In this document: positions 38,559-62,673 of the stretch, piece after piece
Position numbering within the stretch: position 1 is the first letter of the stretch
Layout of the letters: the number at the start of each line of letters is the position of its first letter
Origin: Pedobacter sp. Leaf41
Lineage (GTDB): Bacteria; Bacteroidota; Bacteroidia; Sphingobacteriales; Sphingobacteriaceae
Direction: 5' to 3'
DNA length: 64,000 nt
NCBI RefSeq assembly: GCF_001422545.1
Contig: NZ_LMLE01000001.1
Coordinates: 1,300,127-1,364,126, forward strand
The notes under the pieces: generated by a model
Seen by the model: only the letters and a program-made list of their open reading frames with translations
Database searches by the model: none
What the model was told of the DNA's origin: nothing
Position numbers and translations under genes: made by a program

Positions 38559-38628
38559 ACAGGATAGAACAGGACGGAATAAATGTTTAAAACCGCTAAC
38601 ATCGCATAAGTTTAACCAAATATATATC
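38559..38628 (+). promoter_or_regulatory. Upstream element A of the glycan locus (before susC)
   Basis: Begins with a direct repeat, ACAGGATAGA-ACAGGACGGA, continues through GTTTAAAACCGCTAACATCG and ends TTTAACCAAATATATAT. A similar stretch (element B, 44164-44233) precedes the glycosidase unit. It lies about 150 bases before the susC ATG within the 567-base gap 38209-38775, which has no other gene I can support. A second TAACCAAATATTA lies at 38748-38760, nearer the start codon. It is either a regulator-binding site or a dispersed repeat. Confidence 0.5.
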
Positions 38629-38775
38629 CGTATCAACGACTAACTTACAGCCTGTAAATCCGCAATCTTATTATTTTTTCACTATGATCGCTGGGTTACC
38701 GAAAGGTAAACTACTGGAAGACGTTTCGCAAATCATTGATCGCTTATTAACCAAATATTAATTAAAATCATTACC

Positions 38776-41700
38776 ATGAATTTGAATTTCCAATCAAAAT
38801 CAAATCATCGGCTAAATGTATCAAGCAGAAAAAAAATCCTGATTGTAGGTGTTTCTGCATTGTCGTTTATGCTCATGAGTAACACCGTTAATGCGGCATC
38901 AGGCGCTGAAATTGTGCGCATTGTTCATGCAAAAAACAGTAAAAAACTCGATGTTACTGTAAAAGGAAAAATTACTGACGACAAAGGCGAAACCCTGGTA
39001 GGCGTTAGTATAAAAATTAAAGGCACAGCCCTGGCAACTACAACAGATGCCAACGGTGCATTTTCAATAAACATCCCCTCGACGGTTACAAACCCTGTTT
39101 TAGAGGTAAGTTATATTGGGTATGCAAGCCAGGATGTTCCGGTAAATGGAAGAACAACTATCACTGTTCAGTTGAAAAGTTCAATTAACGATCTTGATGA
39201 GGTAGTGATTGTGGGGTATAACAGCGTTAAGAAAAGCGATTTAACGGGAGCTGTAGTAAGTGTAGGTGCCGAAGAAATTAGATCCAGGCCGGTAACCAAT
39301 GCGTTGCAAGCTATTCAGGGTAAAGCAGCCGGCGTTGATATTACATCGAATGAACGCCCAGGGCAATTGGGGAGTATATTGATTCGTGGTGTTAGATCAA
39401 TCAACGCCAGTAATGCACCGCTATATGTAGTAGATGGGATTCCATTACAATTTGGCGGGATTGATGCGATCAATCCAAATGACATAGAAAATATTGACAT
39501 TTTGAAGGATGCATCCGCTACGGCTATTTATGGTTCACGTGGGGCAAACGGCGTAATTTTAGTCACGACAAAAAAAGGTAAGACAGGTCGTTTAACTATG
39601 GACTATGTGGGTACAGCAACGATTGAAAGCCTTCAGGATAGAATGGAAATGATGAACTCAGAACAATATGTTCAGTTTAGAAGAGATGCATATCGTAGGG
39701 TTGGCTTTTTAAACCCTAATGCAGCTGCTAATTCTACCTATCCTTTGATACCAACATTGGCTGATGATAGAAGAATTTTTGCAGGAGATAACTACACGCT
39801 TGAAAACATTCAAAAAGGCTGGGCTAATGGCACCTACGACGGAAGCTTAATTCCAACCACTGATTGGGGAGATTTGGTAACTCGAACAGGAGTTACACAA
39901 GATCATGTGTTAAGTGTAAGCGGTGGTACCGATAAAATAAAAGCTTATGGTTCATTCGGCTATCTAAACCAAACAGGAACCCAGTTGGGTCAGGATTTTG
40001 AACGGTATAGTGGCAAATTAAGTGTTGAACTTAACCCTGTCAAATGGTTTAAAATGGGATTGAATCTAAATGCAACTTATGGTTTGCAGAACTATGGTTT
40101 TCAAGCAGCAAGTGCATCTGGTGCAGGCAACATTTATGCTGCTGCTCGAGGTATGCTTCCTTTAGCCATTCCTTTTGATGCAAATGGCAACAGAATTAAC
40201 CTGCCAGGAGGAGATATTAATATTCAGAACCCTGTCTTAGAAGCAGATTACAATATTAACTTACGTAAAACACTAAGAACCTTAGGTTCTGCTTTTGCCG
40301 AATTTAACCTGATGAAAGGTTTAAAATACCGTCTGAATTTCGGACCAGACTTCTCAAACTTCTACAATGGTAGATATCAGGATGCTCGTTCTGTAAATAG
40401 GGATGCTGGTGTACCTGGTTCAAATAACAACTTTGCTCAACTAGATCAAAGTAATAAGTTTGCCTATACATTAGATCATCTAATCTATTATGATAAAACC
40501 ATTGGCAAGCATAATTTTGGTGTAACTTTATTACAAAGCTCTTCATACAATAAGGATGAATCTTCCTCCATGCGTGGTAGCCGAATCAATCTGGCTGCAC
40601 CACTTTGGTATGGATTAAGAGGCGCTAATATCACCGCTTTAGATGGTTTTGACACCAACCTTACAGAGACCAATTTAGAATCTTACATGGGAAGGATTAA
40701 TTATACTTTTAATAACAGATATTTATTAACAGCATCCGGTCGTTGGGATGGCGCCTCACAACTTGCAGTTGGCAATAAGTGGGACTTTTTCCCTTCTGCT
40801 GCGTTTGCCTGGCGTATAGATCAGGAAGACTTTCTGAATGACATTAAATGGATCAATTCACTAAAAGTTAGGTTAGGCGTGGGAAGCACTGGGAATTCAT
40901 CAGTACAAATTGGTAGTACACTAGGCCTTTTACAACCGCTTACCTATACCTTTGGTAGTGCTGCACAAGTGGGATACGTAGCATCTGATGCTTCTCTGGC
41001 CAATCCAATTTCTTTCCCAAATAAGCTTTTAAGCTGGGAAAAAACGTTACAGTATAATTTAGGTTTAGATTTCGGATTATTAGAAGGCAGAATTTCTGGT
41101 TCATTGGATATTTATAAATCAAGAACTACTGGCCTAATTTTATTAAAAGATATTCCAATTATTAATGGCTATCCATTTTCTTTCGATAACATAGCCGAAA
41201 CCAAAAACAGAGGGCTGGATTTAACATTAAACACAGTTAATATTAAGACCAAAGATTTTACATGGGAATCAACATTAAATTTCTCTGTGAGCAAGGATGA
41301 AATTGTGAAACTGAATGCTGGCGACATCGTTTCAAATCGATTATTTCTTGGTCAAAGAAATGGTGTAGCTTATGATTTTGTAAAGGATGGAATATGGCAA
41401 AACACTGCAGAAGATTTAGCCGAAATGGCAAAATTTAGAGCCAATGGTGCAAATTTTAATCCTGGAGATATTAGAGTAAGAGATTTAAATGGTGATTACA
41501 GGATCGATGCCAATAATGACCGCCAAATACTTGGCCATTACAACCCAAGTTGGACAGGCGGTTTAACAAACACATTTGGTTACAAAAACTTTGATTTATC
41601 GATTTTCATGGTGGCTCGCTACAATTTCTTAATCGAAACTGGTGCAGAGGCCTTACAGGGTCGTTTTGCGCAACGTGTTCTAGACTATTGGACGCCAACG

Positions 41701-41988
41701 AATCCGACAAATGATTACCCATCACCAAATTATGCCAGTGCAGCTGGAGATCAGTATAAGAGTTCGATGAACTATCAGGATGGATCATTTATTAAAATCA
41801 GAAATATATCACTAGGTTATAATTTTGCTGAAAGTATTGCCAAGAAATTAACTCTATCGAGATTAAGAATTTATGCGCAAGCAATTAATCCGGGTTTGAT
41901 CTATTCCAATATCAAATGGATTGACCCTGACTTAGGAGGTTCTACATTTAACAGAGGCGTGGTATTTGGAGTTAATGCAAGTTTCTAA
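38776..41988 (+). CDS. SusC/RagA family TonB-linked outer membrane transporter (locus 1)
   Basis: A 1070-residue protein. A long cytoplasmic-side start and hydrophobic signal segment (ILIVGVSALSFMLMSNTVNAA) precede a carboxypeptidase-like sandwich (about 60-140, VKGKITDDKGETLVGVSIKIKGT). The linker ends DLDEVVIVGYNSVKKSDLTGAV, the plug carries LQGIQ-like ALQAIQGKAAGVDI and YVVDGIPL, and the barrel ends in FNRGVVFGVNASF. SusC proteins import oligosaccharides with a SusD lid, powered by TonB. The susD gene follows after 67 bases. The family's usual DATAIYGSRGANGVILVTTKKG motif is present (SATAIYGSRGANG). Upstream element A and a TAACCAAATATTA motif stand before the start. Confidence 0.95.
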   Translation: MNLNFQSKSNHRLNVSSRKKILIVGVSALSFMLMSNTVNAASGAEIVRIVHAKNSKKLDVTVKGKITDDKGETLVGVSIKIKGTALATTTDANGAFSINIPSTVTNPVLEVSYIGYASQDVPVNGRTTITVQLKSSINDLDEVVIVGYNSVKKSDLTGAVVSVGAEEIRSRPVTNALQAIQGKAAGVDITSNERPGQLGSILIRGVRSINASNAPLYVVDGIPLQFGGIDAINPNDIENIDILKDASATAIYGSRGANGVILVTTKKGKTGRLTMDYVGTATIESLQDRMEMMNSEQYVQFRRDAYRRVGFLNPNAAANSTYPLIPTLADDRRIFAGDNYTLENIQKGWANGTYDGSLIPTTDWGDLVTRTGVTQDHVLSVSGGTDKIKAYGSFGYLNQTGTQLGQDFERYSGKLSVELNPVKWFKMGLNLNATYGLQNYGFQAASASGAGNIYAAARGMLPLAIPFDANGNRINLPGGDINIQNPVLEADYNINLRKTLRTLGSAFAEFNLMKGLKYRLNFGPDFSNFYNGRYQDARSVNRDAGVPGSNNNFAQLDQSNKFAYTLDHLIYYDKTIGKHNFGVTLLQSSSYNKDESSSMRGSRINLAAPLWYGLRGANITALDGFDTNLTETNLESYMGRINYTFNNRYLLTASGRWDGASQLAVGNKWDFFPSAAFAWRIDQEDFLNDIKWINSLKVRLGVGSTGNSSVQIGSTLGLLQPLTYTFGSAAQVGYVASDASLANPISFPNKLLSWEKTLQYNLGLDFGLLEGRISGSLDIYKSRTTGLILLKDIPIINGYPFSFDNIAETKNRGLDLTLNTVNIKTKDFTWESTLNFSVSKDEIVKLNAGDIVSNRLFLGQRNGVAYDFVKDGIWQNTAEDLAEMAKFRANGANFNPGDIRVRDLNGDYRIDANNDRQILGHYNPSWTGGLTNTFGYKNFDLSIFMVARYNFLIETGAEALQGRFAQRVLDYWTPTNPTNDYPSPNYASAAGDQYKSSMNYQDGSFIKIRNISLGYNFAESIAKKLTLSRLRIYAQAINPGLIYSNIKWIDPDLGGSTFNRGVVFGVNASF

Positions 41989-42055
41989 CCTATAAAGCGA
42001 TTATAAAGTTTACATAATCTATTCCTGTAAACTTCACTTCATAAAAAATATTCAG

Positions 42056-44023
42056 ATGAAAAAGATTATAAATTTAATATCAGGTGCTGCAATAATTGGA
42101 GGCTTAATGGTTTTACCAACCTCTTGCAAAAAAAGTTTTCTTGATGAAAATATTATCAATGCCAGAACAACTGCTGATTTCCAAACTATAGGTGGACTGG
42201 AAGATTTAGCGGTAGGAATGTACCAATCCTTAAAATTTCACTTCAATTATACCTGGGCTTATACCAGCAACAATTATGGCGTAGATGAATTTACAGTAGG
42301 CGGAGATAGAACTGAACAAATGTGGAACTCTTATGATGGCACATTAAATTCTTTCAACAGTGATGTCAGGGCTATTTTCGACAATATGTACGCAAATATC
42401 AATTCGGCAAATATCATGATTAAAAATGTACCCATTTATTATGAAGGTGCAAACAAAAACGCCCGCTTAGGTGAGGGTTACTTTATGCGTGCTTTCGATT
42501 ACTTTAAACTGGTCAAGCAATTTGGCGGAGTTCCTTTACAACTTGAATCTTTAGAAGTAATCAAAGAGCAATTTACCAGAAATTCAGCTAAAGAAGTTTA
42601 TGATCAGGTAATTAAAGATTTTACGCAAGCTTACGACTTACTTCCTGCAACGCCAGGGCAAACTGGGAGAATTACCAAATGGGCAGCTGCTCACTTTTTA
42701 GCCAAAGCTTATTTGTTTCGTGCAAGCGAACTTTATAACGACTGGAATAGTGATACAAAAACTGCTGACCTTCAAAATGCAGTCAAATATGCTGATTTAG
42801 TTATTAATAGTGGAGCACACACTTTGGCAACTAATTATAGCGATCTTTGGAATTTCACTACAGTTGATGGGCCAAATGAAACGAATAGAGAAGTAATTTT
42901 AGCGGCACAGTTTTCTAATAATACTGCTACACAAGGTCGTTACGGAAATCAGGTACACTTGTATTATCCTTCCATCTATCAAACATTGCCTGGTATGGTT
43001 CGTGATATTGCTGGTGGACGTGAATTTCAAAGATTGAAGACAACAGATTATGCAATTGACGTTTTCGATCGCGTTAATGACTCCAGGTTCTGGAAGAGTT
43101 TTAAAACAAGGTATATTGCGAACAATGCCAATAACTTACCTAAATGGACTGCTGCTAATGCGCCAACACCAGCTCTGGTAAATCAAAATAAGTTTAGCGT
43201 TGGCCAGGAATCGATTTTATACATTGTTAATGATGCTGGCGATAGCCGCTACACCAGTTCAAACATTGGCTTAAGAGCTCCGAGTATGTTTGTAAGGTAT
43301 TTTTCGGGCCAGGCGCAAAGCTATTTAAACCCTCATGGAAATTATGGCGTTAGCCAATACGTAGCATTATCAAAATTCATGGATGGTTCCAGAAATTTGG
43401 TTGCTTCGCAATTTGGTCAACGTGATGGTATATTAGCGAGGTTGGGTGAAACTTACTTAATTGCAGCGGAAGCTGCCGGAAGACAAGGTTTGTATGCTCA
43501 AGCTATTACCTATATCAATAGAGTTCGTGACCGTGCTGCTTATAAAGACGGTGAAGATCGATCTTCGTATGTTGATGGTGGAGTATCTTACAAAACAAAC
43601 CCTGCAGTGACCAACCTTAATGTGTCTTATTCAGATAAAAACACCTATTTCGAATCGAATAATATCCCAGTTACCACGACAAATACGTTGACATCAATGC
43701 ACTTGACAAGTGAAAATGATATCTTTAATTCGAATAAAGACTTTTATGATAAGGTTGGTGCCGTATCTAATGCTGATAAATTTAATGCTTTCATATTAAA
43801 CGAACGTTCAAGAGAACTAATGGGAGAATTAATAAGATGGGAAGATCTAGCCCGTACGAAAACATTGGTTGCAAGAACGGCGGCATTTAACCTAGAGGCT
43901 AAGCCGCTTGAGAACAAACACTATTTGCGACCACTACCTCAATCCTATTTGGATGTAATCAAAATCAATGGAGCTGCCTTATCACCAGCGCAAAAGCAAG
44001 AGATGCAAAATCCTAACTGGTAA
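42056..44023 (+). CDS. SusD/RagB family glycan-binding lipoprotein (locus 1)
   Basis: A 655-residue lipoprotein with a signal peptide ending in a lipobox at TSCKKSFLDE. TPR-like helices (ARLGEGYFMRAFDYFKLVKQFGGVPL is the conserved SusD core) and a C-terminal RELMGELIRWEDLARTKTLVAR...NKHYLRPLP are typical. It is longer than many SusDs, with an insert between about residues 300 and 420. It captures the glycan and closes over the SusC pore at the cell surface. It forms an operon with susC and is followed by a strong terminator that cuts it off from the enzymes. Confidence 0.95.
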   Translation: MKKIINLISGAAIIGGLMVLPTSCKKSFLDENIINARTTADFQTIGGLEDLAVGMYQSLKFHFNYTWAYTSNNYGVDEFTVGGDRTEQMWNSYDGTLNSFNSDVRAIFDNMYANINSANIMIKNVPIYYEGANKNARLGEGYFMRAFDYFKLVKQFGGVPLQLESLEVIKEQFTRNSAKEVYDQVIKDFTQAYDLLPATPGQTGRITKWAAAHFLAKAYLFRASELYNDWNSDTKTADLQNAVKYADLVINSGAHTLATNYSDLWNFTTVDGPNETNREVILAAQFSNNTATQGRYGNQVHLYYPSIYQTLPGMVRDIAGGREFQRLKTTDYAIDVFDRVNDSRFWKSFKTRYIANNANNLPKWTAANAPTPALVNQNKFSVGQESILYIVNDAGDSRYTSSNIGLRAPSMFVRYFSGQAQSYLNPHGNYGVSQYVALSKFMDGSRNLVASQFGQRDGILARLGETYLIAAEAAGRQGLYAQAITYINRVRDRAAYKDGEDRSSYVDGGVSYKTNPAVTNLNVSYSDKNTYFESNNIPVTTTNTLTSMHLTSENDIFNSNKDFYDKVGAVSNADKFNAFILNERSRELMGELIRWEDLARTKTLVARTAAFNLEAKPLENKHYLRPLPQSYLDVIKINGAALSPAQKQEMQNPNW

Positions 44024-44045
44024 GTTTGATCTGTCATTATTACAA

Positions 44046-44078
44046 GAGCAATTAACTTGAAGTTAATTGCTCTTTTTT
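44046..44078 (+). terminator. Terminator after susD of locus 1
   Basis: GAGCAATTAACT pairs perfectly with AGTTAATTGCTC around TGA, followed by TTTTTTG. It splits the locus into a transport unit and an enzyme unit. Confidence 0.9.
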
Positions 44079-44163
44079 GTTTGAAGGAGTTCGTATTACA
44101 CCTATTTTTTCAAACGATTGAAATTTAAGTCTAGCCTCTCGATCCTTTTTGAACCTACTTTAA

Positions 44164-44233
44164 ACAGGATGGAACAGGATGGTATACCAATTTTTAAACC
44201 GTAAAATCGTGTAAGCTATTTAACCGAATATTT
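44164..44233 (+). promoter_or_regulatory. Upstream element B of the glycan locus (before the glycosidases)
   Basis: ACAGGATGGA-ACAGGATGG direct repeat, then TTTTTAAACCGTAAAATCG and TTTAACCGAATATTTG. It aligns along its whole length with element A at 38559-38628. It lies after the susD terminator and 55 bases before the first glycosidase ATG, where a promoter is needed. Confidence 0.5.
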
Positions 44234-44288: not shown

Positions 44289-45302
44289 ATGAAAATCTTT
44301 ATCTATAAAAAAATTATCTTCGCTTGCTTGCTTTTAGTTTCCATATTCAGTGTTGCACAACAAAAAGGCACATCATTAATTAATAAACCTCTTTTCAGAG
44401 ATCCTATATTTGATGGAGCGGCAGATCCAGTCGTCATTTGGAATAAGAGTGAAAAAAAGTGGTTTATGTTTTATACTAACAGGCGAGCCAATGCAAAAAA
44501 TCTTGATGGAGTGAGCTGGGTACATGGAACCAGAATTGGCATCGCCGAATCAAAAGATGGCATAAAATGGAAATACCGTGATACTTGCGACATCCAATAT
44601 CGCCTAACGGATTACACCCACTGGGCGCCAGAAGTGATAGAAAACAAAGGCACCTACCACATGTACCTTACCTACGTACCGGGAGTTTTTAAAGATTGGC
44701 GCCATCCACGGTATATTATTCATTTAACCAGTAAAAACTTAATTAACTGGAAATTCGAATCAAAATTGCCTCTAGCCTCCGATCGTTGCATAGATGCCTG
44801 CGTATTTAAGTTGCCTAATAACCAGGGTTGGCGGATGTATTACAATAATGAAGTGGCAGGCAAATCGATCTTCTACGCTGATAGCAAAGACCTTTACCAT
44901 TGGGTTGATAGCGGGAAAAGAATTGTTGGCGATAAAGGATGCGAAGGGCCAAAGGTTTTCTACTGGAAAAATACCTATTGGATGATTGTTGACAACTGGA
45001 AAGGCCTTGGTGTCTATTCCTCAACTGATCTATTAACCTGGAAAAGGCAGGAAAAAAACATATTGCAGTCGCCAGGCAAAGGCGTAGATGATGGCGTGAT
45101 GGGTGGCCATTGCGATGTGCTGGTCAACAATGGAAAAGCTTACGTTTATTATTTCACACATCCCGGCAAAACACCTGAAAATAAAGGCATAGATAATTAC
45201 ACCACCAGAAGAAGCTCCATACAAATGGCTGAACTGAAATATGAAAATGGTGAAATAACTTGCCACAGAGATGAACCTCTTTATGTGAAATTAACACACT
45301 AA
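44289..45302 (+). CDS. Secreted five-bladed beta-propeller glycosidase (GH43/GH32-like)
   Basis: A 337-residue protein with a signal peptide (MKIFIYKKIIFACLLLVSIFSVAQ). The propeller begins FRDPIFDGAADPVVIWNKSEKKWFMFYTN, where the Asp of ADPVV is the expected catalytic base. HWAPEVIENKGTYHMYLTYVPG, GCEGPKVFYWKNTYWMIVD and DDGVMGGHCDVLV hold further acid candidates; the GCEGP Glu fits the acid position. The family could be GH43 or a near relative such as GH117; this cannot be settled by eye. The frame opens 19 codons earlier at 44232, but the signal peptide fixes ATG 44289. It is the first gene of the enzyme unit, 9 bases before GH2. Confidence 0.7.
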   Translation: MKIFIYKKIIFACLLLVSIFSVAQQKGTSLINKPLFRDPIFDGAADPVVIWNKSEKKWFMFYTNRRANAKNLDGVSWVHGTRIGIAESKDGIKWKYRDTCDIQYRLTDYTHWAPEVIENKGTYHMYLTYVPGVFKDWRHPRYIIHLTSKNLINWKFESKLPLASDRCIDACVFKLPNNQGWRMYYNNEVAGKSIFYADSKDLYHWVDSGKRIVGDKGCEGPKVFYWKNTYWMIVDNWKGLGVYSSTDLLTWKRQEKNILQSPGKGVDDGVMGGHCDVLVNNGKAYVYYFTHPGKTPENKGIDNYTTRRSSIQMAELKYENGEITCHRDEPLYVKLTH

Positions 45303-45311
45303 CCAAATAAA

Positions 45312-48266
45312 ATGAAATACCTCTACCTCATCGTTTTATGCGGCCTCATGGCAGGTAACCTTCACGCACAAAATCAGCGGAAAACCTATAATTTTAACCC
45401 TGGCTGGAAACTTCTTGTAGGCGATCAGGAAGATGCCAAAAACGTTGAATTTGATGACAACAGCTGGAAATCAATCACGCTTCCCCACGCCTGGAATGAA
45501 GATGAGGCATTTAAAAAATCTATAGAACAGCTCTCTACTGGCATCGTCTGGTATAGAAAACATTTCAAAGTTGAAGGCTCAAAAGACCATAAAGTTTTCC
45601 TTGAATTTGAAGGAATCAGGCAGGCCGGAGAATTTTATTTAAATGGGGTGTTTATTGGTCGGCATGAAAATGGGGTAACTGCTTTCGGCTTTGATATCAG
45701 TGATTTAATTCAGCCAGACAAAGACAATGTGCTTGCCGTACGAATTGATAATGCCTGGAATTACAAAGAGAAGGCTACAAACTCGGGTTACCAATGGAGT
45801 GATAAAAATTTTAATGCCAATTACGGCGGAATCTCTAAAAATGTTCGCCTGCACCTCACGGGAAAGATTTATCAAACTTTGCCATTAAATGCTTTACTAA
45901 AAACAACGGGCAATTATATTTATGCCAAAAACTTTGATATCACAGGTAAAAAAGCAGTAATTGTTTCTGAATCGCAAGTGCGTAATGAGACCTCAGCAAT
46001 AAGCGAAGTGCAGTATGAGGTGCAAATTAAAGATGCATCAGGTAAAGTGATTAAAACTTTTCAATCGACAGCTCAGAACTTAGCGCCAGGAACAACCGCA
46101 ATGCTAAAAGCAGAGGCAATGGTTGAGGGATTGAATTTCTGGAGTTGGGGCTATGGATATTTATACACGGTTACTTCCCGAATTAAAATAAACGGCAATA
46201 CCGTTGATGAATTAAATACGAAAACCGGATTTAGGAAGGCTGAATTTGAAGATGGTATGGTTTACCTCAATGATCGGGTATTGATGATTAAAGGATACGC
46301 ACAACGCACCAGCAACGAGTGGCCTGCCATTGGTTTGTCGGTACCCGCCTGGTTGAGTGATTACAGCAATCAATTGATGGTAGAAAGCAATGCCAATTTA
46401 GTAAGATGGATGCATATTGCGCCATGGAAACAAGATGTAGAATCCTGCGACCGGGTAGGTTTAATTCAAGCAATGCCTGCCGGTGATGCCGAAAAAGATG
46501 TAACGGGAACCCGGTGGGATCAACGAAAGTCAGTAATGACAGATGCCATTATTTACAATCGAAATAACCCAAGCATCCTGTTCTACGAATGTGGTAATGA
46601 ATCTATTAGTGCCGCCCACATGGTTGAAATGAAGGCAATTCGAGATCAGTACGACCCTAACGGAGGCCGGGCGATCGGCTCCAGAGAAATGTTGGACATT
46701 CCTTCCGCAGAATATGGCGGCGAAATGCTTTACATTAATAAAAGCGCTTCGAAACCCTTGTGGTCGATGGAATATTCCAGAGATGAAGGTTTAAGAAAAT
46801 ACTGGGACGAGTTTTCGCCTCCCTTTCATAAAGATGGTGCGGGTCCGCTTTACAAGGGTGCAGATGCCAGCATTTATAATAGAAACCAGGATACACATGC
46901 TATAGAAAACGTAGTGAGATGGAATGAATATTACAAAGAAAGACCAGGGACAGGAAAAAGGGTAAGTTCTGGAGGCGTGAATATCATCTTTTCGGACTCT
47001 AACACCCATTACCGTGGAGAAGAAAATTACCGTCGCAGTGGCGAAGTAGATGCGATGAGAATCCCTAAAGATGGATTTTATGCGCATAAAGTGATTTGGG
47101 ATGGCTGGGTTGATACCAAGAAAACAGGCATTCATATTATCGGTCACTGGAATTATAAAGCTGGAATTAAAAAGGATATTCACGTAATCGCCTCAGGCGA
47201 TAAAACTGAACTGTTTGTTAATGGAAAATCATTGGGTTTTGGAGCCAAAAGAGATGGCTTTGTGTATACTTTTAAAGATGTTGCTTATAAATCTGGAAGC
47301 TTAAAGGCAATTTCTTATGACGATAAAGGTGTTAAATTAGCTGAAAAGCAAGTAAAAACCGCCGGAACGCCTGTTGCCATTAAACTGACCAAGCTACAAC
47401 ATCCCACAGGATTTAAAGCAGATGGTGCTGATTTGGCACTTGTTCAAGTTGAGGTTGTAGACGCTGAAGGAAATAGGAACCCGATCGCATTGAACTTAAT
47501 TAATTTCGAAATAAGTGGTCCGGCAGAGTGGCGTGGTGGTTTAGCGCAAGGGCCAGATAACTACATCTTATCCAAACAGTTGCCGGTTGAAGGCGGCGTA
47601 AACCGGCTATTAATTCGATCAACCACAACGCCGGGTAAAATCAATATCATTGCAAAAGCTGATGGATTAAAATCCGCTACAATTACATTAGAAACGCTTC
47701 TCGTAAATGTTAAAGATGGTTTATCGGTCCAGTTTCCGGCTGACGGATTAAAATCAAACTTACAGCGTGGAGAAACACCAGTGGCACAAACTTATCAAAT
47801 GAGCAGAACACCTGTAACCATTTTATCAGCTTCTGCCGGCGCTAATACAGAAAAGGCTAAGCTAAGTTATGATGATAATGAGCTCAGCGACTGGGTAAAC
47901 GATGGTAATTTAAACACCGCCTGGATCAAATATAATTTGGCTAAAGAAACCAGGGTTACAGAAGTTGAATTGAAAGTAAATGGTTTTAGAACTAAAGCGT
48001 ATCCAATAAGAATTTTGGTGGACGACAAAGAAGTTTTCAAAGGCAATACCATCCCAAGTTTGGGCTATTTTACCGCTGTGTGTAAACCAACAACAGGCAA
48101 AACGGTAACTATTCAGCTTCTTGGTTCTGGAAAAGAGACGGCGGAGAGCGAAAAAATCGGCGTTGAAGTGAATGGCAAAAAGCTTGATGACGGCATCGAG
48201 CGGGCTGAAACCAAATCAAAGGGAGGCTTAAGCATTATCGAAACCGAAATTTACGGAGCTAAATAG
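45312..48266 (+). CDS. Glycoside hydrolase family 2 enzyme
   Basis: A 984-residue secreted enzyme (signal peptide MKYLYLIVLCGLMAGNLHA). Order of parts: sugar-binding jelly roll (about 30-190), immunoglobulin-like domain (about 200-310) and TIM barrel. NPSILFYECGNES holds the acid/base Glu (about 428) and PLWSMEYSRDEG the nucleophile Glu (about 486). Two further beta domains and a discoidin-like segment (YDDNELSDWVNDGNLNTAWIKY) follow near 860. The family includes beta-galactosidases, glucuronidases and mannosidases; the barrel end ELFVNGKSLG belongs to the DUF4982-like group common in these loci. Its ATG is preceded by TAACCAAATAAA. It lies in the enzyme operon between the propeller glycosidase and GH43. 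Confidence 0.88.
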   Translation: MKYLYLIVLCGLMAGNLHAQNQRKTYNFNPGWKLLVGDQEDAKNVEFDDNSWKSITLPHAWNEDEAFKKSIEQLSTGIVWYRKHFKVEGSKDHKVFLEFEGIRQAGEFYLNGVFIGRHENGVTAFGFDISDLIQPDKDNVLAVRIDNAWNYKEKATNSGYQWSDKNFNANYGGISKNVRLHLTGKIYQTLPLNALLKTTGNYIYAKNFDITGKKAVIVSESQVRNETSAISEVQYEVQIKDASGKVIKTFQSTAQNLAPGTTAMLKAEAMVEGLNFWSWGYGYLYTVTSRIKINGNTVDELNTKTGFRKAEFEDGMVYLNDRVLMIKGYAQRTSNEWPAIGLSVPAWLSDYSNQLMVESNANLVRWMHIAPWKQDVESCDRVGLIQAMPAGDAEKDVTGTRWDQRKSVMTDAIIYNRNNPSILFYECGNESISAAHMVEMKAIRDQYDPNGGRAIGSREMLDIPSAEYGGEMLYINKSASKPLWSMEYSRDEGLRKYWDEFSPPFHKDGAGPLYKGADASIYNRNQDTHAIENVVRWNEYYKERPGTGKRVSSGGVNIIFSDSNTHYRGEENYRRSGEVDAMRIPKDGFYAHKVIWDGWVDTKKTGIHIIGHWNYKAGIKKDIHVIASGDKTELFVNGKSLGFGAKRDGFVYTFKDVAYKSGSLKAISYDDKGVKLAEKQVKTAGTPVAIKLTKLQHPTGFKADGADLALVQVEVVDAEGNRNPIALNLINFEISGPAEWRGGLAQGPDNYILSKQLPVEGGVNRLLIRSTTTPGKINIIAKADGLKSATITLETLLVNVKDGLSVQFPADGLKSNLQRGETPVAQTYQMSRTPVTILSASAGANTEKAKLSYDDNELSDWVNDGNLNTAWIKYNLAKETRVTEVELKVNGFRTKAYPIRILVDDKEVFKGNTIPSLGYFTAVCKPTTGKTVTIQLLGSGKETAESEKIGVEVNGKKLDDGIERAETKSKGGLSIIETEIYGAK

Positions 48267-48393: not shown

Positions 48394-50001
48394 ATGAGCA
48401 AAATAAAAAATCATTTCAAACTACCTGTTCTAATACTTACTTTTTTGCTTTTGCTTACCGCTGTAAATAATCTACAGGCACAGTTTGCAAAAATCAAAAA
48501 TGATAATTTCTGGAAAACGATAGATGGCCAGCCAATTTATAGTCAAGGCGGTGGTATTTTTCAGTTTACCGATCCAAAATCTGGCACTAAAAAATATTTC
48601 TGGTATGGAGTCAAATATGCGGAGGCCGAACTTTACCTAAACAATCCATCAGTTACCTATCCAAATGCAACATTCGAATCCGTTACTTGCTATAGTTCTA
48701 CTGATTTGGTGAACTGGATCAGCGAAGGTAACGTGCTAACCAAAGATGAAATTAGCAGAGTACCTAAAACCTGGGTTGGTAGATTGGGTGTGGCCTATAT
48801 TGCAACTCTAAAAAAATACGCCATGTTTGTTCAGCATGGTAATCAGGTGCTCATTACTACTGCTGATACTCCGAACGGTGCCTTTGAATGGCATCAACGA
48901 ATAAACATGGAACCAATGATTGGAACCAGCAATACTGGGGATCAAACTGTTTTTACGGATGAGGATACTGGAAAATCATATCTGGTTTATTCTTATGGTC
49001 GCGGTCGCAATAAAATTTATCTTTCAGAAATCGGAGTAAAAAACGGCAAAGTTAACTTGCTTGATTGTGTAGAAATTTTCAAGGGCGAGAGCCGTGAGGG
49101 CAATTGCATGTTCAAATATGGAGGGAAATATTACATGTATGCCTCAAATATTTATGGATGGGATGGCTCGCTGGCTTACTATTTAGTGGCCGATAACATC
49201 AGTGGACCGTATTTACCTAGCAACAAAATGCTGGTTACGAACGGAAGCGCTGATGATTATGCTCACATTTCACAAACAGGTTTCTTCGTTAACGTCAAAG
49301 GTTCAAAAGCAGAAACTGTTGTTTTTTGTGGTGATCGCTGGGCTAATTTCGCTGGAAATGGATTAGGTTATAATCAATGGTGTCCACTATCTTTTGCAGG
49401 AAAAACGCCGTTTTTCAATTCTCTGAACTCATGGAATCTCAATATTGAAACAGGCACCTGGAAAGTTGCTGAAGATAATGACTTTGTTAAAAATGGTAGC
49501 TTTGAAGCAGATAGAAAACGGATTCCAAGCGTGTTTAAGCCAGTTCAGATGCAATTAACAGGTTGGAAAACGTCTGTCATTAAAGGAAATCAAATTAGCC
49601 TGGATAGTTTAACCTCCCCAACGTTAAATCATTTCAACAGCACAGCAGAAAGAAAAATTGTTATTGGCGAGAAGAGTTTAAATGTTAGCGATAAAGTAAA
49701 TTTCCAGCGAAAAATTAATCAGATTATTACTTCAACTATCCCTGTGCAATTGGTTCACGGGCGCTATAAATTAACCGCAAAAGTAAAAAACAATGGCCGA
49801 TTTAAGAATCTGGAAATGTATGCTGTAAGCGGAGGCAAAAGACTCAGTCATCACTTTGAAAAAGAAAGTAATGATTGGAATACTATTATGCTCGAGAACA
49901 TTGGTATTGTTAACGGGAAAGTTGAAATTGGCTTTTTGGCCGAGGGAATGGCTGGTGCCAGCTGCTTGATAGACGATGTTTCTTTAATTAAAAGTAAATA
50001 A
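48394..50001 (+). CDS. GH43-like glycosidase with C-terminal binding module
   Basis: A 535-residue secreted protein (signal peptide ending NNLQAQ). The propeller runs from about 40 to 350: PIYSQGGGIFQF, KKYFWYGV, VTCYSSTDLVNW, DQTVFTDEDTGKSYLVYSYG, GESREGNCMFKYGGKYYMYASN and VVFCGDRW. These follow the pattern of GH43 exo-beta-1,3-galactanase-like subfamilies. A C-terminal sandwich (about 365-535, DFVKNGSFEADRKRIPSVF to GASCLIDDVSLIK) looks like a carbohydrate-binding module of the CBM4/CBM22 type. It starts after a 128-base gap and ends 5 bases before the next GH43, so the two are co-transcribed. Substrate: probably a galactan; this is inference. Confidence 0.78.
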   Translation: MSKIKNHFKLPVLILTFLLLLTAVNNLQAQFAKIKNDNFWKTIDGQPIYSQGGGIFQFTDPKSGTKKYFWYGVKYAEAELYLNNPSVTYPNATFESVTCYSSTDLVNWISEGNVLTKDEISRVPKTWVGRLGVAYIATLKKYAMFVQHGNQVLITTADTPNGAFEWHQRINMEPMIGTSNTGDQTVFTDEDTGKSYLVYSYGRGRNKIYLSEIGVKNGKVNLLDCVEIFKGESREGNCMFKYGGKYYMYASNIYGWDGSLAYYLVADNISGPYLPSNKMLVTNGSADDYAHISQTGFFVNVKGSKAETVVFCGDRWANFAGNGLGYNQWCPLSFAGKTPFFNSLNSWNLNIETGTWKVAEDNDFVKNGSFEADRKRIPSVFKPVQMQLTGWKTSVIKGNQISLDSLTSPTLNHFNSTAERKIVIGEKSLNVSDKVNFQRKINQIITSTIPVQLVHGRYKLTAKVKNNGRFKNLEMYAVSGGKRLSHHFEKESNDWNTIMLENIGIVNGKVEIGFLAEGMAGASCLIDDVSLIKSK

Positions 50002-50006
50002 AACTG

Positions 50007-51419
50007 ATGCGTAAATGCAAACTTTTGAGCATTCTATGGAGCATGCTGCTTTTTCAAGCGTTGAATTTATTTGCTCAACAGCCTGGAAAAACTGATGCAA
50101 TTTATTCTGGTTTATCGTGGTATGATCAAAATGGTAATGTAGTAAGTGCTCACGGGGGAAATATCATTAAAGAAGGAAGTCGGTATTATCTGTTTGGCGA
50201 ATCACATAGCGATACCAGCAATGCATTCGAAGGTTTCAACTGCTACTCTTCACAAGACCTTTACAACTGGAAATTTGAAAGCGTTGCTCTTCCAAAACAA
50301 CTAAACGGAAAGCTCGGTCCAAATCGAGTTGGAGAACGCGTAAAAGTGATGAAAAATCCCTCTTCAGGACTTTTTGTGATGTTGATGCATGTTGATACTT
50401 TAGGCTATAAAGATCAATTTGTCGGTTATGCTACTTCAAAAAACATCACAGGACCCTACCTATTTAACGGACCTCTTTTATTTAAGGGAAAAGCGATCAA
50501 AAAATGGGATATGGGTACTTTTCAGGATGATGATGGAAAAGGGTACTTGCTTACCCATGGCGGAATTATTTATCGGTTAAGTGACGATTACCAATCTGCA
50601 AGTGAACTGCTGAATCAAAATATATCTACAGGTTTTGAATCGCCCACACTGTTTAAAAGAAGTGGAATTTATTATTTTATTGGATCTCATCTAAGCTCTT
50701 GGGAAAAGAATGATAATTATTATTATACTTCATCTTCGCTGTCAGGTCCATGGAAATTTGGTGGAATATTAGCACCAAAAGGAAAACTTACGTGGAATTC
50801 ACAATCAACCTTTGTACTGGAAATACCTGGAAAATCTGATACAACTTACATGTTTATGGGCGATAGGTGGTCCTATCCAAAACAGCATTCTGCTGCGAGC
50901 TATGTTTGGCAACCCATCAGTTTTGCAGCTGATTCGATTTCTATCTCTACATTTCTACAGGCCTGGAAAATAAATCAAGTTAGTGGCAAAGCAACGGTGA
51001 AAGCGCTTGATTATCAAATGCTTTTAAGCAATAACAAACTCCTAAAATATGCCGGGCGGTGGGTCGATACGACTATCAACGAATCTCCAGTTATGCGATC
51101 AATCGACTCTAAATCTTCGCTTTCTGTCGAATTTATCGGTACTCAAATTGGAATTTATGGATTAACCTTACCTGATAATGGTTACGCAAGAGTATCTGTG
51201 AGCAATAAAAGCGGAAAAATTTTGGTAAATACACTGGTAGATTTTTATTCCAAAACTCCTGCTTCGCAATTGATATTTTTATCGCCAATATTAAAAAAAT
51301 CAAGTTATAAACTAAGGTTAGAGGTAACAGGCGAGCGCCCAAATTGGTCCGATAAGAAAAAAACGGTTTACGGCAGCACAGCAAATAATATCTCCCTATC
51401 AAAAATAATTATCAAATAA
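50007..51419 (+). CDS. GH43-like glycosidase (exo-beta-1,3-galactanase-like)
   Basis: A 470-residue secreted protein (signal peptide ending LNLFAQQ). NVVSAHGGNIIKEGSRYYLFGE, FNCYSSQDLYNWKFE, NRVGERVKVMKNPSSG, MGTFQDDDGKGYLL, GFESPTLFKRSGIYYFIGSHLSSW, WNSQSTFVLEI and YMFMGDRWS follow the GH43 subfamily 24 type step by step. That group cuts beta-1,3-galactan backbones of type II arabinogalactan. A smaller beta domain closes the protein (about 340-470). It starts 5 bases after the previous GH43 and ends 11 bases before GH115, so it is within one operon. The pair probably arose by old duplication, given the shared layout but low identity. Confidence 0.8.
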   Translation: MRKCKLLSILWSMLLFQALNLFAQQPGKTDAIYSGLSWYDQNGNVVSAHGGNIIKEGSRYYLFGESHSDTSNAFEGFNCYSSQDLYNWKFESVALPKQLNGKLGPNRVGERVKVMKNPSSGLFVMLMHVDTLGYKDQFVGYATSKNITGPYLFNGPLLFKGKAIKKWDMGTFQDDDGKGYLLTHGGIIYRLSDDYQSASELLNQNISTGFESPTLFKRSGIYYFIGSHLSSWEKNDNYYYTSSSLSGPWKFGGILAPKGKLTWNSQSTFVLEIPGKSDTTYMFMGDRWSYPKQHSAASYVWQPISFAADSISISTFLQAWKINQVSGKATVKALDYQMLLSNNKLLKYAGRWVDTTINESPVMRSIDSKSSLSVEFIGTQIGIYGLTLPDNGYARVSVSNKSGKILVNTLVDFYSKTPASQLIFLSPILKKSSYKLRLEVTGERPNWSDKKKTVYGSTANNISLSKIIIK

Positions 51420-51430
51420 TAAAAGCAAAG

Positions 51431-53785
51431 ATGAATTTAAAACTACTACTCCTGCTGATTGTTTCCTTTGCAGTACCCCAGCTCCTATTCGCCGACTTTA
51501 TCTTTCGCAACGGGAAGAATATGGAAATCTCATTCCCTGGCGGAGAAGAAGATGTAGTACAAACGGCAGTTGATATTTTTTCAAAAGATTTTAGCGCTGT
51601 TTTTAATGCAAATTTATTGAAAGGTTCAAACGCTCAGATTATAGTCGGCACTCTTGGGAATCATTCCCTTGCAGAAAAACTGATTGATCAGGCCTCTTTG
51701 GAAAAGCTGAAAATTCATTCTGAAGGTTATGCCTTATGGGTTGAAAAAGACAAAATGTACATCTTGGGTAGCGACAAAAGAGGCACCGCCTATGGCATAC
51801 TCGAATTATCTCGTCGCATCGGCGTTTCACCTTGGGAATGGTGGGCAGATGCGGCCATCGCCAGGAAAAATTCACTAAGCTTTAAAAATGGGTTTCAATT
51901 ATTAGAACATCCATCGGTGGCATATCGTGGTATATTTATCAACGATGAAGATTTCGGTTTGATGCCCTGGAGTTCCCGCACTTTCGAACCTTCGAAAATT
52001 AAAGGGCAAATAGGGCCAAAAACACATGCCCAAATTTTTGAACTGCTGTTGCGTTTAAGGGCAAATGCTTTTTGGCCAGCCATGCACGAAGTTTCTGTAG
52101 CTTTTTTTCAAACGCCTGGTAATAGGGAAATGGCTGATAAATATGGAATCGTTGTTGGTTCATCACATTGTGAACCGATGATGAGAAGTGCCAATACAGA
52201 ATGGAAAATTGATGGTAAAGGCAATTATGACTATGTAAATAATCGTGAAAATGTGTTGCGCTTTTGGGAAACCCGAGTGAAGGAACTTACAAACTCTGAC
52301 AACATTTATACCTTAGGAATTAGAGGGGTTCACGATGGAAAAATGCAAGGGGCAAATACCTTAAAGGAACAATTTGATGCCATCACCTCGATAATTAAAG
52401 ATCAACGCATCATGATCAGTGAGAATTTAAATCCCGATTTGACTAAAGTTCCGCAAGTTTTTATTCCTTACAAAGAGGTTCTGGATGTGTATAAAATGGG
52501 CCTTAAAGTGCCTGATGATGTGACTTTGATGTGGACAGATGATAATTATGGCTATATCCGCCACTTCCCTACCGAAGCAGAGCGGAACCGCAAAGGCGGA
52601 AACGGGATTTACTACCACATTTCTTACTGGGGTCGCCCGCATGATTACCTTTGGCTGTCTACCAATCATCCTGCGCAAATTTACACGCAAATGAAGCTCG
52701 CTTATGATAAAGGTGCTAAAGACATGTGGATCCTGAACGTTGGTGATATTAAGCCAGGGGAGTATTTAACAGAACTATTCTTGGATATGGCTTGGAATAT
52801 CGATTCGATTGAAGATAATAAAAAAGGATTGGATCAACATTTAAAAACATGGCTTACAAGAGAGTTTGGCCAGCCATATGCTGCTGATTTACTCGCCGTA
52901 ATGAATGAATACTATCGTTTGGCCTATATCCGAAAACCCGAATTTATGGGAAACACCCGAACTGAGGAAACCGACCCGAAATTTAAAGAAGTTACTGATC
53001 TACCCTGGAGTGAGCAGGAAATAAAAAACCGTATCGCCGACTATGATAAAATTTCGGAAAAAGTAGTCCAGCTTTCTAAAGCTATACCAGCCGACAAGCA
53101 AAATGCCTGGTTTGAATTAATTGAATACCCCGTACGTGGGGCAGCAGAGTTAAACAGAAAGCTGCTATATGCGCAACTTGCCAGACATGGTCGTGCGAAT
53201 TGGTCGCAAAGCGAAGCCGCTTATGACGCCATTGAAAAACTCACGACTAAGTATACAACTTTGGCGAATGGAAAATGGAAAAACATGATGGATTTCAAAC
53301 CAAGAAATCTTGCAGTTTTTCAAAAACTACCGCAAGTAAAATCAGCAACTCCGCTTAAAACTTTTCAAGCCCCTTTTGCAACATTCAACGGAAATGAATT
53401 TGTAAAATTTGAAGGTACAAAACCTGTATCACATGGCTTAGGTCACCAAAGTGGAGCGGTATCTATCAAAAAAGGAGATCACGCAGTTTATGAATTTAAT
53501 AGCCTTGCAAAGGATTCGATAAGAGTTGAAGTAGCGCTTGCTCCGAATTTACCGGTGGAAGGAAAATTGATTCGGTTTGAAATCAAAATTGATGATCAGG
53601 CTCCAAAAATTGTGGATTACCATACCAGCGACAGAAATGAGGAATGGAAAATCAATGTTTTAACCAATCAAGCCAAACGTATGATTATTACCAGGTTGGA
53701 CAATAAACAACGCAACCACTCCATTACCATTAAAGCGTTGGATGAGAACGTTGTTTTGGATCAAATAAAAATTTATAACCTATAG
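51431..53785 (+). CDS. Glycoside hydrolase family 115 alpha-glucuronidase
   Basis: A 784-residue secreted enzyme (signal peptide ending PQLLFA). The family marks are clear: GTAYGILELSRRIGVSPWEWWADA, YRGIFINDEDFGLMPWSSRTF, LRLRANAFWPAMHE, YGIVVGSSHCEPMMRS, LGIRGVHDGKM, MWTDDNYGYIRHFP and GIYYHISYWGRPHDYLWLST. GH115 removes (4-O-methyl) glucuronic acid from xylan or arabinogalactan side chains. Together with the galactanase-like GH43 pair upstream, arabinogalactan is the better guess here. A C-terminal beta domain (about 680-784) completes the protein. It is the last gene of the enzyme operon and is convergent with GH28 with only 20 bases between the stops. Confidence 0.92.
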   Translation: MNLKLLLLLIVSFAVPQLLFADFIFRNGKNMEISFPGGEEDVVQTAVDIFSKDFSAVFNANLLKGSNAQIIVGTLGNHSLAEKLIDQASLEKLKIHSEGYALWVEKDKMYILGSDKRGTAYGILELSRRIGVSPWEWWADAAIARKNSLSFKNGFQLLEHPSVAYRGIFINDEDFGLMPWSSRTFEPSKIKGQIGPKTHAQIFELLLRLRANAFWPAMHEVSVAFFQTPGNREMADKYGIVVGSSHCEPMMRSANTEWKIDGKGNYDYVNNRENVLRFWETRVKELTNSDNIYTLGIRGVHDGKMQGANTLKEQFDAITSIIKDQRIMISENLNPDLTKVPQVFIPYKEVLDVYKMGLKVPDDVTLMWTDDNYGYIRHFPTEAERNRKGGNGIYYHISYWGRPHDYLWLSTNHPAQIYTQMKLAYDKGAKDMWILNVGDIKPGEYLTELFLDMAWNIDSIEDNKKGLDQHLKTWLTREFGQPYAADLLAVMNEYYRLAYIRKPEFMGNTRTEETDPKFKEVTDLPWSEQEIKNRIADYDKISEKVVQLSKAIPADKQNAWFELIEYPVRGAAELNRKLLYAQLARHGRANWSQSEAAYDAIEKLTTKYTTLANGKWKNMMDFKPRNLAVFQKLPQVKSATPLKTFQAPFATFNGNEFVKFEGTKPVSHGLGHQSGAVSIKKGDHAVYEFNSLAKDSIRVEVALAPNLPVEGKLIRFEIKIDDQAPKIVDYHTSDRNEEWKINVLTNQAKRMIITRLDNKQRNHSITIKALDENVVLDQIKIYNL

Positions 53786-53805: not shown

Positions 53806-55056
53806 TTACTTTTTCACCACCAATGGTTCACCATTCACAATAACATTTTCGTATTTAACTTCATCATATTTATTTTTAAGCACCGGATTTTTAGTAGTGA
53901 TCTGTAAATTTTGAAAGGTAAAACCAGAAAGTTTGTCCAGGGGATTGCCATTCATTTCACCAAATTTGTTGGCTTCTACTTTGATGTTGCTCATTTTGAT
54001 ATTCCTAATGGTGCCAAAAGGTTGTTCAGTGCTACCTGCTAAATCAAAGAACTGCTTCCAGGGATTAAGGCTAATTATCGAACCACATTTACCGGTTATA
54101 TTTTCAATAGTAATGTTTTCATAAATTTGAAAAGTATCACCTCTCATCTTCAAGTTCAAAATCGGACAATTATTTTCCATTACGCAGTTGCGAAGAATGA
54201 TGTTGTTGGCGTGTACACATTCGCTGCCCAAGGTAAGCACCGCGTGTGAGTTTCCAAAAGTGCAGTTTTCAATTAATACATCTTCAACCGTTCCGTTTTC
54301 TGGCAGCTGATGAGCGGTTGGTCCTTTACCTCCTTTGATAGCAATAGCGTCGTCATTTACAGAGATATAGCAATTTCTGATGATTACGTTTTTGCATACA
54401 TCAAGGTCAATTCCATCGGTGCTTGGTGCAGGAACGGGTTGATATGGCGATCGGATATCAGTATTCTCTACTAAAATGTTATTGCATTTGTAGAAATGGG
54501 TTGTCCAAAAGCCGGCATTGCGAAGTTTAATATTTTGAATTTTGACGTTGTCACTTCCCCAAATAAAAATTAATCTCGGCCTGCTCACTTCCAAATTGGT
54601 ACTTTCCTTGCCAATTTTGCGAACCGAATCGCGATGCGACCAAAACGTTTTCCAAAATTTTGATCCATTGCCGTCAATGGTCCCAGGTCCTTCGATACTG
54701 AAATCATTTACCTGATAGGCATTAATAACGGCCGCAAAATACTTCAGGCTTCTCCCTTCCATCCTTGATGGGATAAAGGGATAATTCTTAATATCATCTG
54801 ACCCTTTTAGTACTCCACCCTCTTTTAAAACTAATTTTGTTTTCTTTTTGAAAAACAAAGCACCAGTCAAGAAAGTGCCTTTAGGTATCACAATCTTTCC
54901 TCCACCTCTTGAGGCAGCTCGATCGATTACTTTTTGTATGGCTTTGGTTTGAACGATGTTGCTATCTGCTTTTACACCAAACTTCATGATGTCGTATTCT
55001 TGCGCATTAAGCTTTAACGCAGTGATGAAAAGGATAACGGTTATTAAATATTTCAT
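53806..55056 (-). CDS. Glycoside hydrolase family 28 (polygalacturonase-like)
   Basis: A 416-residue secreted beta-helix enzyme (signal peptide ending LKLNAQ). YDIMKFGVKADS and IQKVIDRAASRGGGKIVIPKGTFLTGAL form the usual start. STDGIDLDVCKNV, NDDAIAIKGGKG and NSHAVLTLGSE hold the three catalytic Asp positions and the substrate-side His. GH28 cuts or trims galacturonan and related uronic polymers; this one could act on rhamnogalacturonan or galacturonate side groups. It faces the GH115 gene and has its own promoter region. CTAACCAAAT lies directly ahead of its ATG, as before susC and GH2 of the same locus. Confidence 0.9.
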   Translation of the reverse strand: MKYLITVILFITALKLNAQEYDIMKFGVKADSNIVQTKAIQKVIDRAASRGGGKIVIPKGTFLTGALFFKKKTKLVLKEGGVLKGSDDIKNYPFIPSRMEGRSLKYFAAVINAYQVNDFSIEGPGTIDGNGSKFWKTFWSHRDSVRKIGKESTNLEVSRPRLIFIWGSDNVKIQNIKLRNAGFWTTHFYKCNNILVENTDIRSPYQPVPAPSTDGIDLDVCKNVIIRNCYISVNDDAIAIKGGKGPTAHQLPENGTVEDVLIENCTFGNSHAVLTLGSECVHANNIILRNCVMENNCPILNLKMRGDTFQIYENITIENITGKCGSIISLNPWKQFFDLAGSTEQPFGTIRNIKMSNIKVEANKFGEMNGNPLDKLSGFTFQNLQITTKNPVLKNKYDEVKYENVIVNGEPLVVKK

Positions 55057-55181
55057 ATTTGGTTAGCGATCAACATAAAATCGACCCATTTCAAATATCA
55101 ATAAATGGCCAACGAATTGCGTCCTGTAGTATCCTGCCATTTGAAGAATGGGAAACTTATGCTAAACGACTTATCACCTAA

Positions 55182-55637
55182 CTATGGTTCTCTGCTTAAA
55201 TATATAGCCTTTACACCTTTGGCAGCTACCTGATTTTTCCCATAAGTGAGTTGAGATTTATCATTAATTTGTGCGGAAATGACCATTGCATTGCTCGACA
55301 GCTCATCAACTATCCAGTTATTGAAGGTGGCAATGGCAGCATTTTCAACCATAAGCGTTCTTGTACCAACCGTATTGAGCACTTTATAATTTGATGTTTT
55401 AACATCGGCATTGATATCGTTGGATAATTTAATTTGACTTTGATCAAAGGTCCAATAAGTTTTAATGGCGTCTACAACGGAGTGGCTAACCACTTCTCCC
55501 GATGAATTATAGAGGATGATATCGTAACCGCCGGTTGACCATTTTCCTTTTAGTGTCTCGGTGGTAGTTGCATTGTTATCTTTTTTACAGGAAAAGATGC
55601 AAAAAACCATTACAAAGGCTAGAAAAGTACTTCTCAT
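55182..55637 (-). CDS. Small lipocalin-like lipoprotein
   Basis: A 151-residue lipoprotein: signal peptide with lipobox IFSC (Cys17), then KKDNNATTTETLKGKWSTGGYDIILYN. The K-G-K-W start and alternating strands are of the lipocalin-like plan of the other two small lipoproteins in this window, with no strong identity to them. The function is unknown. It lies 125 bases upstream of GH28 on the same strand, so it may share the transcript; a role at the surface with the glycan locus is possible but unproved. Confidence 0.6.
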   Translation of the reverse strand: MRSTFLAFVMVFCIFSCKKDNNATTTETLKGKWSTGGYDIILYNSSGEVVSHSVVDAIKTYWTFDQSQIKLSNDINADVKTSNYKVLNTVGTRTLMVENAAIATFNNWIVDELSSNAMVISAQINDKSQLTYGKNQVAAKGVKAIYLSREP

Positions 55638-56123
55638 ATCATTTTGGATGTATGTTAAAGATAAATATTCTTAATAAAAGCACAAAGCTTTCATTTAAAA
55701 GCAATTAGATAGTTAGCAGGGCGATAGTTATTTTTATAAAACCTTTAAAAACAGAAAAGGACAATCCATCCGGAACTGTCCCTTTTTCTAACCAAATATA
55801 TACCTGTTATGAGTCAGGTAATTTTTTATGTTTGCAGCCTCAACGACTGAAATTATCTTGTATATAACGTTATGCAGTTATGCTCTTTATTTCCAGAAAT
55901 TCATATTTAAAAATTGAAACCAGATGGGTACGGTTGGTTTGCTTTTGATGAATATTTGGTTAAAGAGCCTTGCTTATTTTCAAAATTTTACTTCATTTAA
56001 AGCAAGTTTAAAACGTTAAACAAATCTAAGTTATTTTTTACTAATAAATATATTATTTATATAAAAAATTTTCAATTTAAAAACCTTCATTATTGATAAG
56101 GTTTTTAAATTGAATCTTGGTGT
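55638..56123. other. Gap between the two glycan loci, with a hairpin and a TAACCAAATATATA motif
   Basis: No gene in 486 bases. A hairpin of AAAAGGACA and TGTCCCTTTTT (55755-55787) could end transcripts coming from the left-hand or right-hand locus. Directly after it, TAACCAAATATATACCTGTTAT (first 14 bases identical to 38613-38626) repeats the end of upstream element A. The rest is AT-rich and blank. Confidence 0.45.
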
Positions 56124-57875: not shown

Positions 57876-57893
57876 CTTTTTATCAATTATCAA

Positions 57894-61151: not shown

Positions 61152-61170
61152 AGTCAATTTATAATTCAGA

Positions 61171-62613: not shown

Positions 62614-62673
62614 TGAGAATTTTCTTTTGGTTAGAATTCGTTTGCCGGAGCATTGCTACCCCGGCTTTATAAG

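Follow-up and report, generated by a model that had tools for sequence, protein, structure and literature searches.

Two elements, A and B, precede the two transcription units of a glycan locus in the 64,000-nucleotide stretch of Pedobacter sp. Leaf41 analysed here (the window). They are likely to be operator-promoters of an L-rhamnose regulon, bound by RhaR, a GntR-type protein of the rhamnose (rha) locus that is probably an activator. The proposed mechanism is as follows. (i) Two ACAGGAT half-sites would be bound head-to-tail by RhaR at about -50 to -32. (ii) RhaR would sense L-rhamnose or a derivative. (iii) Occupying the -33 position, it would recruit RNA polymerase to a sigma-A-type -7 box 19 bp downstream. 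(iv) This single trans-acting regulator would switch on SusC/SusD import together with rhamnogalacturonan and arabinogalactan enzymes. (v) In other species, the RhaR circuit would also cover rhamnose transport and catabolism. The sites, their spacing, orientation, target genes and conservation are established by sequence comparison. RhaR is very probably the protein that binds, rhamnose is with much the same assurance the presumed signal, and activation, rather than repression, is the likely mode of action.

The elements of the window and their promoter boxes are these:

38559..38577, + strand: element A, predicted operator with the repeat ACAGGAT-aga-ACAGGACGG, at about -50 to -32; 31.4 bits.
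38597..38604, + strand: -7 promoter box of unit A, TAACATCG, 19 bp after the repeat; predicted transcript start at about 38609.
44164..44182, + strand: element B, predicted operator with the repeat ACAGGAT-gga-ACAGGATGG; 31.2 bits.
44202..44209, + strand: -7 promoter box of unit B, TAAAATCG; predicted transcript start at about 44214.
55119..55137, - strand: third, weaker element, GCAGGAT-act-ACAGGACGC; 22.2 bits, genome-wide E 9e-4.
55092..55099, - strand: -7-like box of the third element, GATATTTG, at the identical 19-bp spacing.

The full repeats read ACAGGATAGAACAGGACGG (A, 38559-38577, +) and ACAGGATGGAACAGGATGG (B, 44164-44182, +). With up to three mismatches allowed, these are the sole matches across the 64 kb, where 0.01 would be expected by chance. 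An earlier sequence-only reading had correctly placed two similar elements before the two units. Several details of that reading are revised here. The half-site recurs at a period of 10 bp (ACAGGAT plus 3 bp), or one turn of DNA, and not at 11 bases. Likeness between A and B extends through the TTTAAA/CCG and ATCG blocks; the shared ATCG is real, but it is the 3' end of the -7 box, fixed 19 bp from the repeat, and not a separate element. The TTTAACC-AATAT block, formerly counted as part of the element, is generic leader sequence downstream of the predicted transcript start. The related motif AACCAAWTA is about seven times as dense between genes as within them, mostly in the orientation of the gene that follows, and examples from the leaders of many genes include 38612-38624 and 44220-44232 of the window. 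To the two elements originally listed must be added the weaker third copy at 55137-55119 (-), which had been missed.

Strong copies beyond the window are few, nearly all intergenic and gene-directed, both in the same genome and in relatives, which upholds the idea of a shared regulatory site. Across the 4.78-Mb genome, six matches were found with up to three mismatches: A, B, two further intergenic and two intragenic copies. The four strong sites are all intergenic and directed at a gene. They lie within about 50 kb, in one rhamnogalacturonan/arabinogalactan supercluster encoding members of glycoside hydrolase (GH) families GH106, GH88, GH28, GH43, GH127 and GH115, a GH51-type protein and GDSL esterases. 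Its GH106 and GH28 proteins are closest to the Bacteroides thetaiotaomicron rhamnogalacturonan enzymes BT4145 and BT4153, at scores below the NCBIfam cut-offs. Site C (C1:1371829-1371847, -) lies 162 bp upstream of a fasciclin protein gene followed by susC-susD. Site D (C1:1388687-1388705, -) precedes a 70-codon open frame (L008:4391-4603, -) that matches the N-terminus of a longer gene in a close relative (L128) at 66% and that of the GH95 gene in another (L096) at 41%. Since the frame resembles the N-termini of longer genes in relatives, D is probably the surviving promoter of a GH95-like glycosidase gene that has decayed. With a sequence profile built from 45 sites, the four strong sites of the genome came first, followed by weaker copies before genes for an L-lactate dehydrogenase (lldD; 24.3 bits), the window GH28 protein (22.2 bits) and a GH2 protein (18.0 bits).

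Of 145 genomes of the genus, 36 contain the exact pattern; the reversed pattern, used as a control, is in none of them. Surroundings were retrieved for most, not all, of these sites. Among the 58 retrieved, 55 are intergenic and three intragenic, and behind every intergenic site the next gene runs on the same strand. Most often the target is the fasciclin-SusC-SusD unit (20 genomes) or the susC that follows element A (15); GH43, GH2, GH115, GH95 and GH28 genes are also found behind sites in relatives. A genome-wide scan for sites confined to SusC/SusD loci had been suggested as a sign of a regulon. A regulon is indeed indicated, but one wider than SusC/SusD that includes rhamnose transport and catabolism.

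The geometry of the promoters is nearly rigid. When sites were aligned on the repeat, with no constraint downstream, a second conserved block emerged, T38 A39 n n T42 T43 n G45 (TAnnTTnG), which fits the sigma-A -7 box of Bacteroidota. Of 32 non-redundant genus sites, 30 have the TA...T signature at offset 38, exactly 19 bp past the end of the repeat; no other offset shows it in more than six sites. In Flavobacterium, the -7 box TAnnTTTG occupies -12 to -5 (PMC9723704); the match of the block at offset 38 to this box places the repeat at about -50 to -32. The strict form TAnnTTTG is seen in none of the 32 genus sites and is present in several rha promoters and flavobacterial sites. A scan for the repeat with a -7 box at 16-18 bp instead of 19 matched no genome of the genus, which serves incidentally as a spacing control. 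No TTG of a -33 box was found at offsets 10-20 in the 32 sites, and the repeat thus appears to take the place of the -33 box. A near-invariant distance between operator and promoter suggests an activator that touches RNA polymerase, since such spacing is needed by an activator and not by a repressor. The shared activator site proposed earlier is retained as a shared site, with activation plausible from the rigid 19-bp spacing and the missing -33 TTG.

The same regulon could instead be repressed by the same GntR-type RhaR, which would cover the -33 region and be released by rhamnose. The operator does overlap the core promoter, and sugar-responsive regulators of the GntR family are often repressors, as with FucR of B. 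thetaiotaomicron and AraR of B. subtilis. FucR is listed in the GntR family (PMC3878776). The near-invariance of the spacing, which repression would not require, and the absence of TTG at the -33 position both speak against this reading and make it unlikely.

The link to rhamnose comes from the L-rhamnose operon itself. In Flavobacterium sp. Sd200, Mangrovimonas and one Saprospiraceae genome, the site lies beside this operon. There, the rhaEW promoters (L204, L258, L168) each have a copy that is half degenerate, and TATTTTTG or TATTTTGG stands precisely at offset 38. Twenty rha regions were then collected from 19 further site-bearing genomes. They hold 18 core matches (up to three mismatches, with a -7 box), mostly at rhaEW, against 0.3 in shuffled sequence; the remaining regions contain diverged copies, judged by inspection. 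These read AAAGGAT-agt-ACAGGACAG in Flavobacterium (20-bp spacing), ACATGAT-agt-GCATGACAG in P. cryophilus and GCATGAC-agt-GCATGACGG in Arcticibacter. Pedobacter rhaT promoters have TCATAAC-agt-GCATAACAG or a close variant in 11 of 12 cases, the twelfth having a misplaced start codon, and the repeat read in this way keeps the 19-bp spacing. Diverged copies thus stand upstream of the L-rhamnose operon, at equal or nearly equal spacing, in the lineages checked. In several flavobacteria, lldD is one of the genes of the rha run; its product, an L-lactate dehydrogenase, uses the compound formed when L-lactaldehyde is oxidized. The element upstream of lldD is kept in all 12 close Pedobacter orthologues, and none was found at a distant homologue from a genome without RhaR. 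The lldD site argues that Pedobacter RhaR reads ACAGGAT as well.

The gene of the candidate regulator lies in the rha locus. In 11 of 12 Pedobacter rha regions, the twelfth being incomplete, rhaK is followed by the gene of a GntR protein with a periplasmic-binding-like domain; in most other genera, RhaR homologues are encoded next to rhaEW or close by. The genome under study has a single protein of this type at E 1e-12, encoded at G000:C11:419613-420644. No regulator gene lies in the window, as the sequence-only reading had remarked, and the likely one is on another contig. In this protein, the N-terminal GntR domain (PF00392) scores above its cut-off and the C-terminal periplasmic-binding-like domain (PF13377) just below (26.3 bits against 26.5); the L258 and L168 homologues exceed the PF13377 cut-off. 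The best NCBIfam match of the helix-turn-helix (HTH) region is PdxR. Each of the 34 genus genomes with true sites encodes RhaR, and the 18 genomes without RhaR have no true site; the co-occurrence has P 0.006 with kinship among genomes ignored, a pattern that is weak alone. RhaR was also found in 13 of 13 further site-bearing genomes.

Several observations weigh against assigning the elements to RhaR and to one common geometry. The exact site is missing from 93 of the 127 RhaR-bearing genomes of the genus, and in the genome under study the RhaR gene is not adjacent to the elements. The rha operon of Pedobacter has a diverged site of its own (TCATAAC-agt-GCATAACAG as against ACAGGAT), and the recognition helix reads SRDTVEKAY in flavobacteria and SRDTAEKGY in Pedobacter; it is assumed that one protein reads both ACAGGAT and the diverged rha site types. 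Flavobacterial rhaT promoters have a spacing of 20 bp. The 19-bp spacing was imposed in the GTDB-wide and rha-locus scans, so that only the genus set is an unbiased test of it. GntR operators are typically palindromic (PMC4494728), and the present site, a direct repeat, departs from the palindrome of AraR-like operators. The proposed mode nonetheless has a precedent in the MocR subfamily of GntR proteins, activators that recognize direct repeats (PMC5320631). The helix change in Pedobacter fits the drift of the rha site.

An apparent course of this drift can be traced. The rha operator seems to pass from ACAGGAT through ACATGAT/GCATGAC to GCATAAC alongside a helix change from TVEKAY to TAEKGY (L272:14614-15645, L330:3766, L324:3752), possibly a case of operator-regulator co-evolution.

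Control of the rhamnose-related genes by some other trans-acting regulator, such as an AraC-type hybrid two-component system (HTCS), a lone AraC protein or an OmpR-type response regulator, is improbable. OmpR-type regulators often bind 10-bp direct repeats. The genome encodes 25 AraC-type domains, and one lone AraC gene lies about 13 kb from site D. Polysaccharide utilization loci of Bacteroides are commonly under systems of this kind, but the predicted HTCS sites there have a period of about 21 bp and SusR sites periods of 67/77 bp (Ravcheev et al. 2013, PMC3878776). An HTCS operator was rejected on the 10-bp period and the lack of a conserved second copy upstream, and a SusR operator because no second conserved box occurs from -70 to +129 around the repeat. 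Local regulators fared no better. For the AraC gene near site D, a cupin-AraC gene (L008:17520-18416, +), relatives show no orthologue close to their sites, and the superclusters of the eight best-covered genomes share no conserved regulator. An AraC domain was present in none of the first 80 loci scanned around sites, and AraC domains in 13 genomes showed no shared neighbour among the matches listed. The other alternative of the sequence-only reading, a dispersed intergenic repeat of the ACAGGAT type without regulatory role, would suit copies that are short, near-identical and intergenic, but is effectively eliminated by the own-genome and genus scans, in which four strong copies per genome are always gene-directed, locked to a -7 box and conserved across genera. 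The criterion applied is the one that the sequence-only reading itself had set.

With RhaR as the preferred regulator, the predicted targets within the window, and the genes around them, are as follows:

38776..41988, + strand: SusC-like TonB-dependent receptor, first gene of unit A.
42056..44023, + strand: SusD-like lipoprotein, second gene of unit A.
44289..45302, + strand: first gene of unit B, for a GH43-family protein; the ATG at 44289 shares the frame of the listed TTG at 44232.
45312..48266, + strand: GH2-family protein of unit B; its orthologue is directly preceded by a site in two relatives.
48394..53785, + strand: rest of unit B, comprising GH43 (48394-50001), GH43 (50007-51419) and GH115 (51431-53785) proteins.
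53806..55056, - strand: GH28 protein, target of the third element, closest to rhamnogalacturonidase BT4153.
55182..63966, - strand: distal part of a convergent gene run (fasciclin proteins, SusC/SusD).

The gene order after element B is GH43-GH2-GH43-GH43-GH115. Its first gene probably starts at the ATG at 44289, 44232 being merely the first TTG. The minus-strand fasciclin/SusC/SusD genes (window 53806-63966; L007:617-7669, -) are convergent with unit B. The first genes of the 55182..63966 run lie beyond the window end, behind site C (G000:C1:1371829-1371847, -), from which the run extends into the right end of the window.

The site is distributed well beyond Pedobacter. A scan of 84,980 genomes for the repeat plus -7 box returned at least 116 stretches, nearly all from Bacteroidota. 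Among the matches listed are Pedobacter, Flavobacterium, Chryseobacterium, Zobellia, Maribacter, Winogradskyella, Algibacter, Arenibacter, Pontibacter, Sphingobacterium, Saprospiraceae and others. Two clear matches from outside Bacteroidota, and two from within the phylum, fall inside open frames. Targets in the same set encode SusC, GH106, GH78, GH88, GH28, GH43, GH2 and GH5 proteins and pectate lyase, and the rhamnose transporter gene rhaT is a target twice (L204, L258). Marine sites (L175, L254; Winogradskyella, Psychroserpens) precede GH5-type genes; at L175, GH3-like and sulfatase-like genes follow, possibly a locus for ulvan, another rhamnose-rich glycan.

On balance, these data favour a previously undescribed, phylum-wide rhamnose regulon of Bacteroidota, in which a GntR/periplasmic-binding activator would control loci for rhamnose-rich glycans (rhamnogalacturonan, arabinogalactan, possibly ulvan) in trans through a direct repeat that replaces the -33 box. 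Searches of the open-access literature found no description of a rhamnose regulon of GntR type in Bacteroidota. In the prevailing picture of polysaccharide loci in this phylum, most are switched by local sensors that respond to the oligosaccharides of the locus. In the present case, whole loci in soil, marine and plant-associated lineages seem to be controlled in trans by a regulator of the monosaccharide that is set free. The site is simple enough for predicting rhamnose-regulated loci in any genome, the signal for the use of pectin, and perhaps ulvan, becomes directly testable, and a candidate rhamnose-inducible promoter for Bacteroidota is provided.

Known systems resemble the proposed one in part. 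B. subtilis AraR is an arabinose repressor with palindromic operators. The AraR subfamily, which joins a GntR HTH to a LacI-like sensor domain, shares the domain architecture of the candidate regulator; direct repeats and probable activation set the latter apart. The MocR activators PdxR, GabR and TauR (PMC5320631) have in common with it a GntR-type HTH, direct repeats and activation, the last being proposed here, but carry an aminotransferase-like domain where RhaR has a periplasmic-binding-like one. A survey of rhamnose regulators names AraC, DeoR and LacI types only (Rodionova et al. 2013, PMC3870299). As in its RhaR/RhaS regulons, one rhamnose regulator would preside over rhaT, rhaEW, rhaI and rhaK together with rhamnoside and rhamnogalacturonide genes, and its DeoR-type RhaR sites are also direct repeats, with a 10-11-bp period, a likeness by description. 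Unlike those regulons, the present one would have a GntR regulator with a periplasmic-binding-like domain and include large SusC/SusD loci. The HTCS and SusR regulons (PMC3878776) likewise have direct-repeat sites before susC/susD and glycosidase units, rhamnogalacturonan loci included. Theirs have the longer periods given above and usually come with a local sensor gene; the present sites repeat every 10 bp, and the gene of their likely regulator is distant, among those for monosaccharide catabolism.

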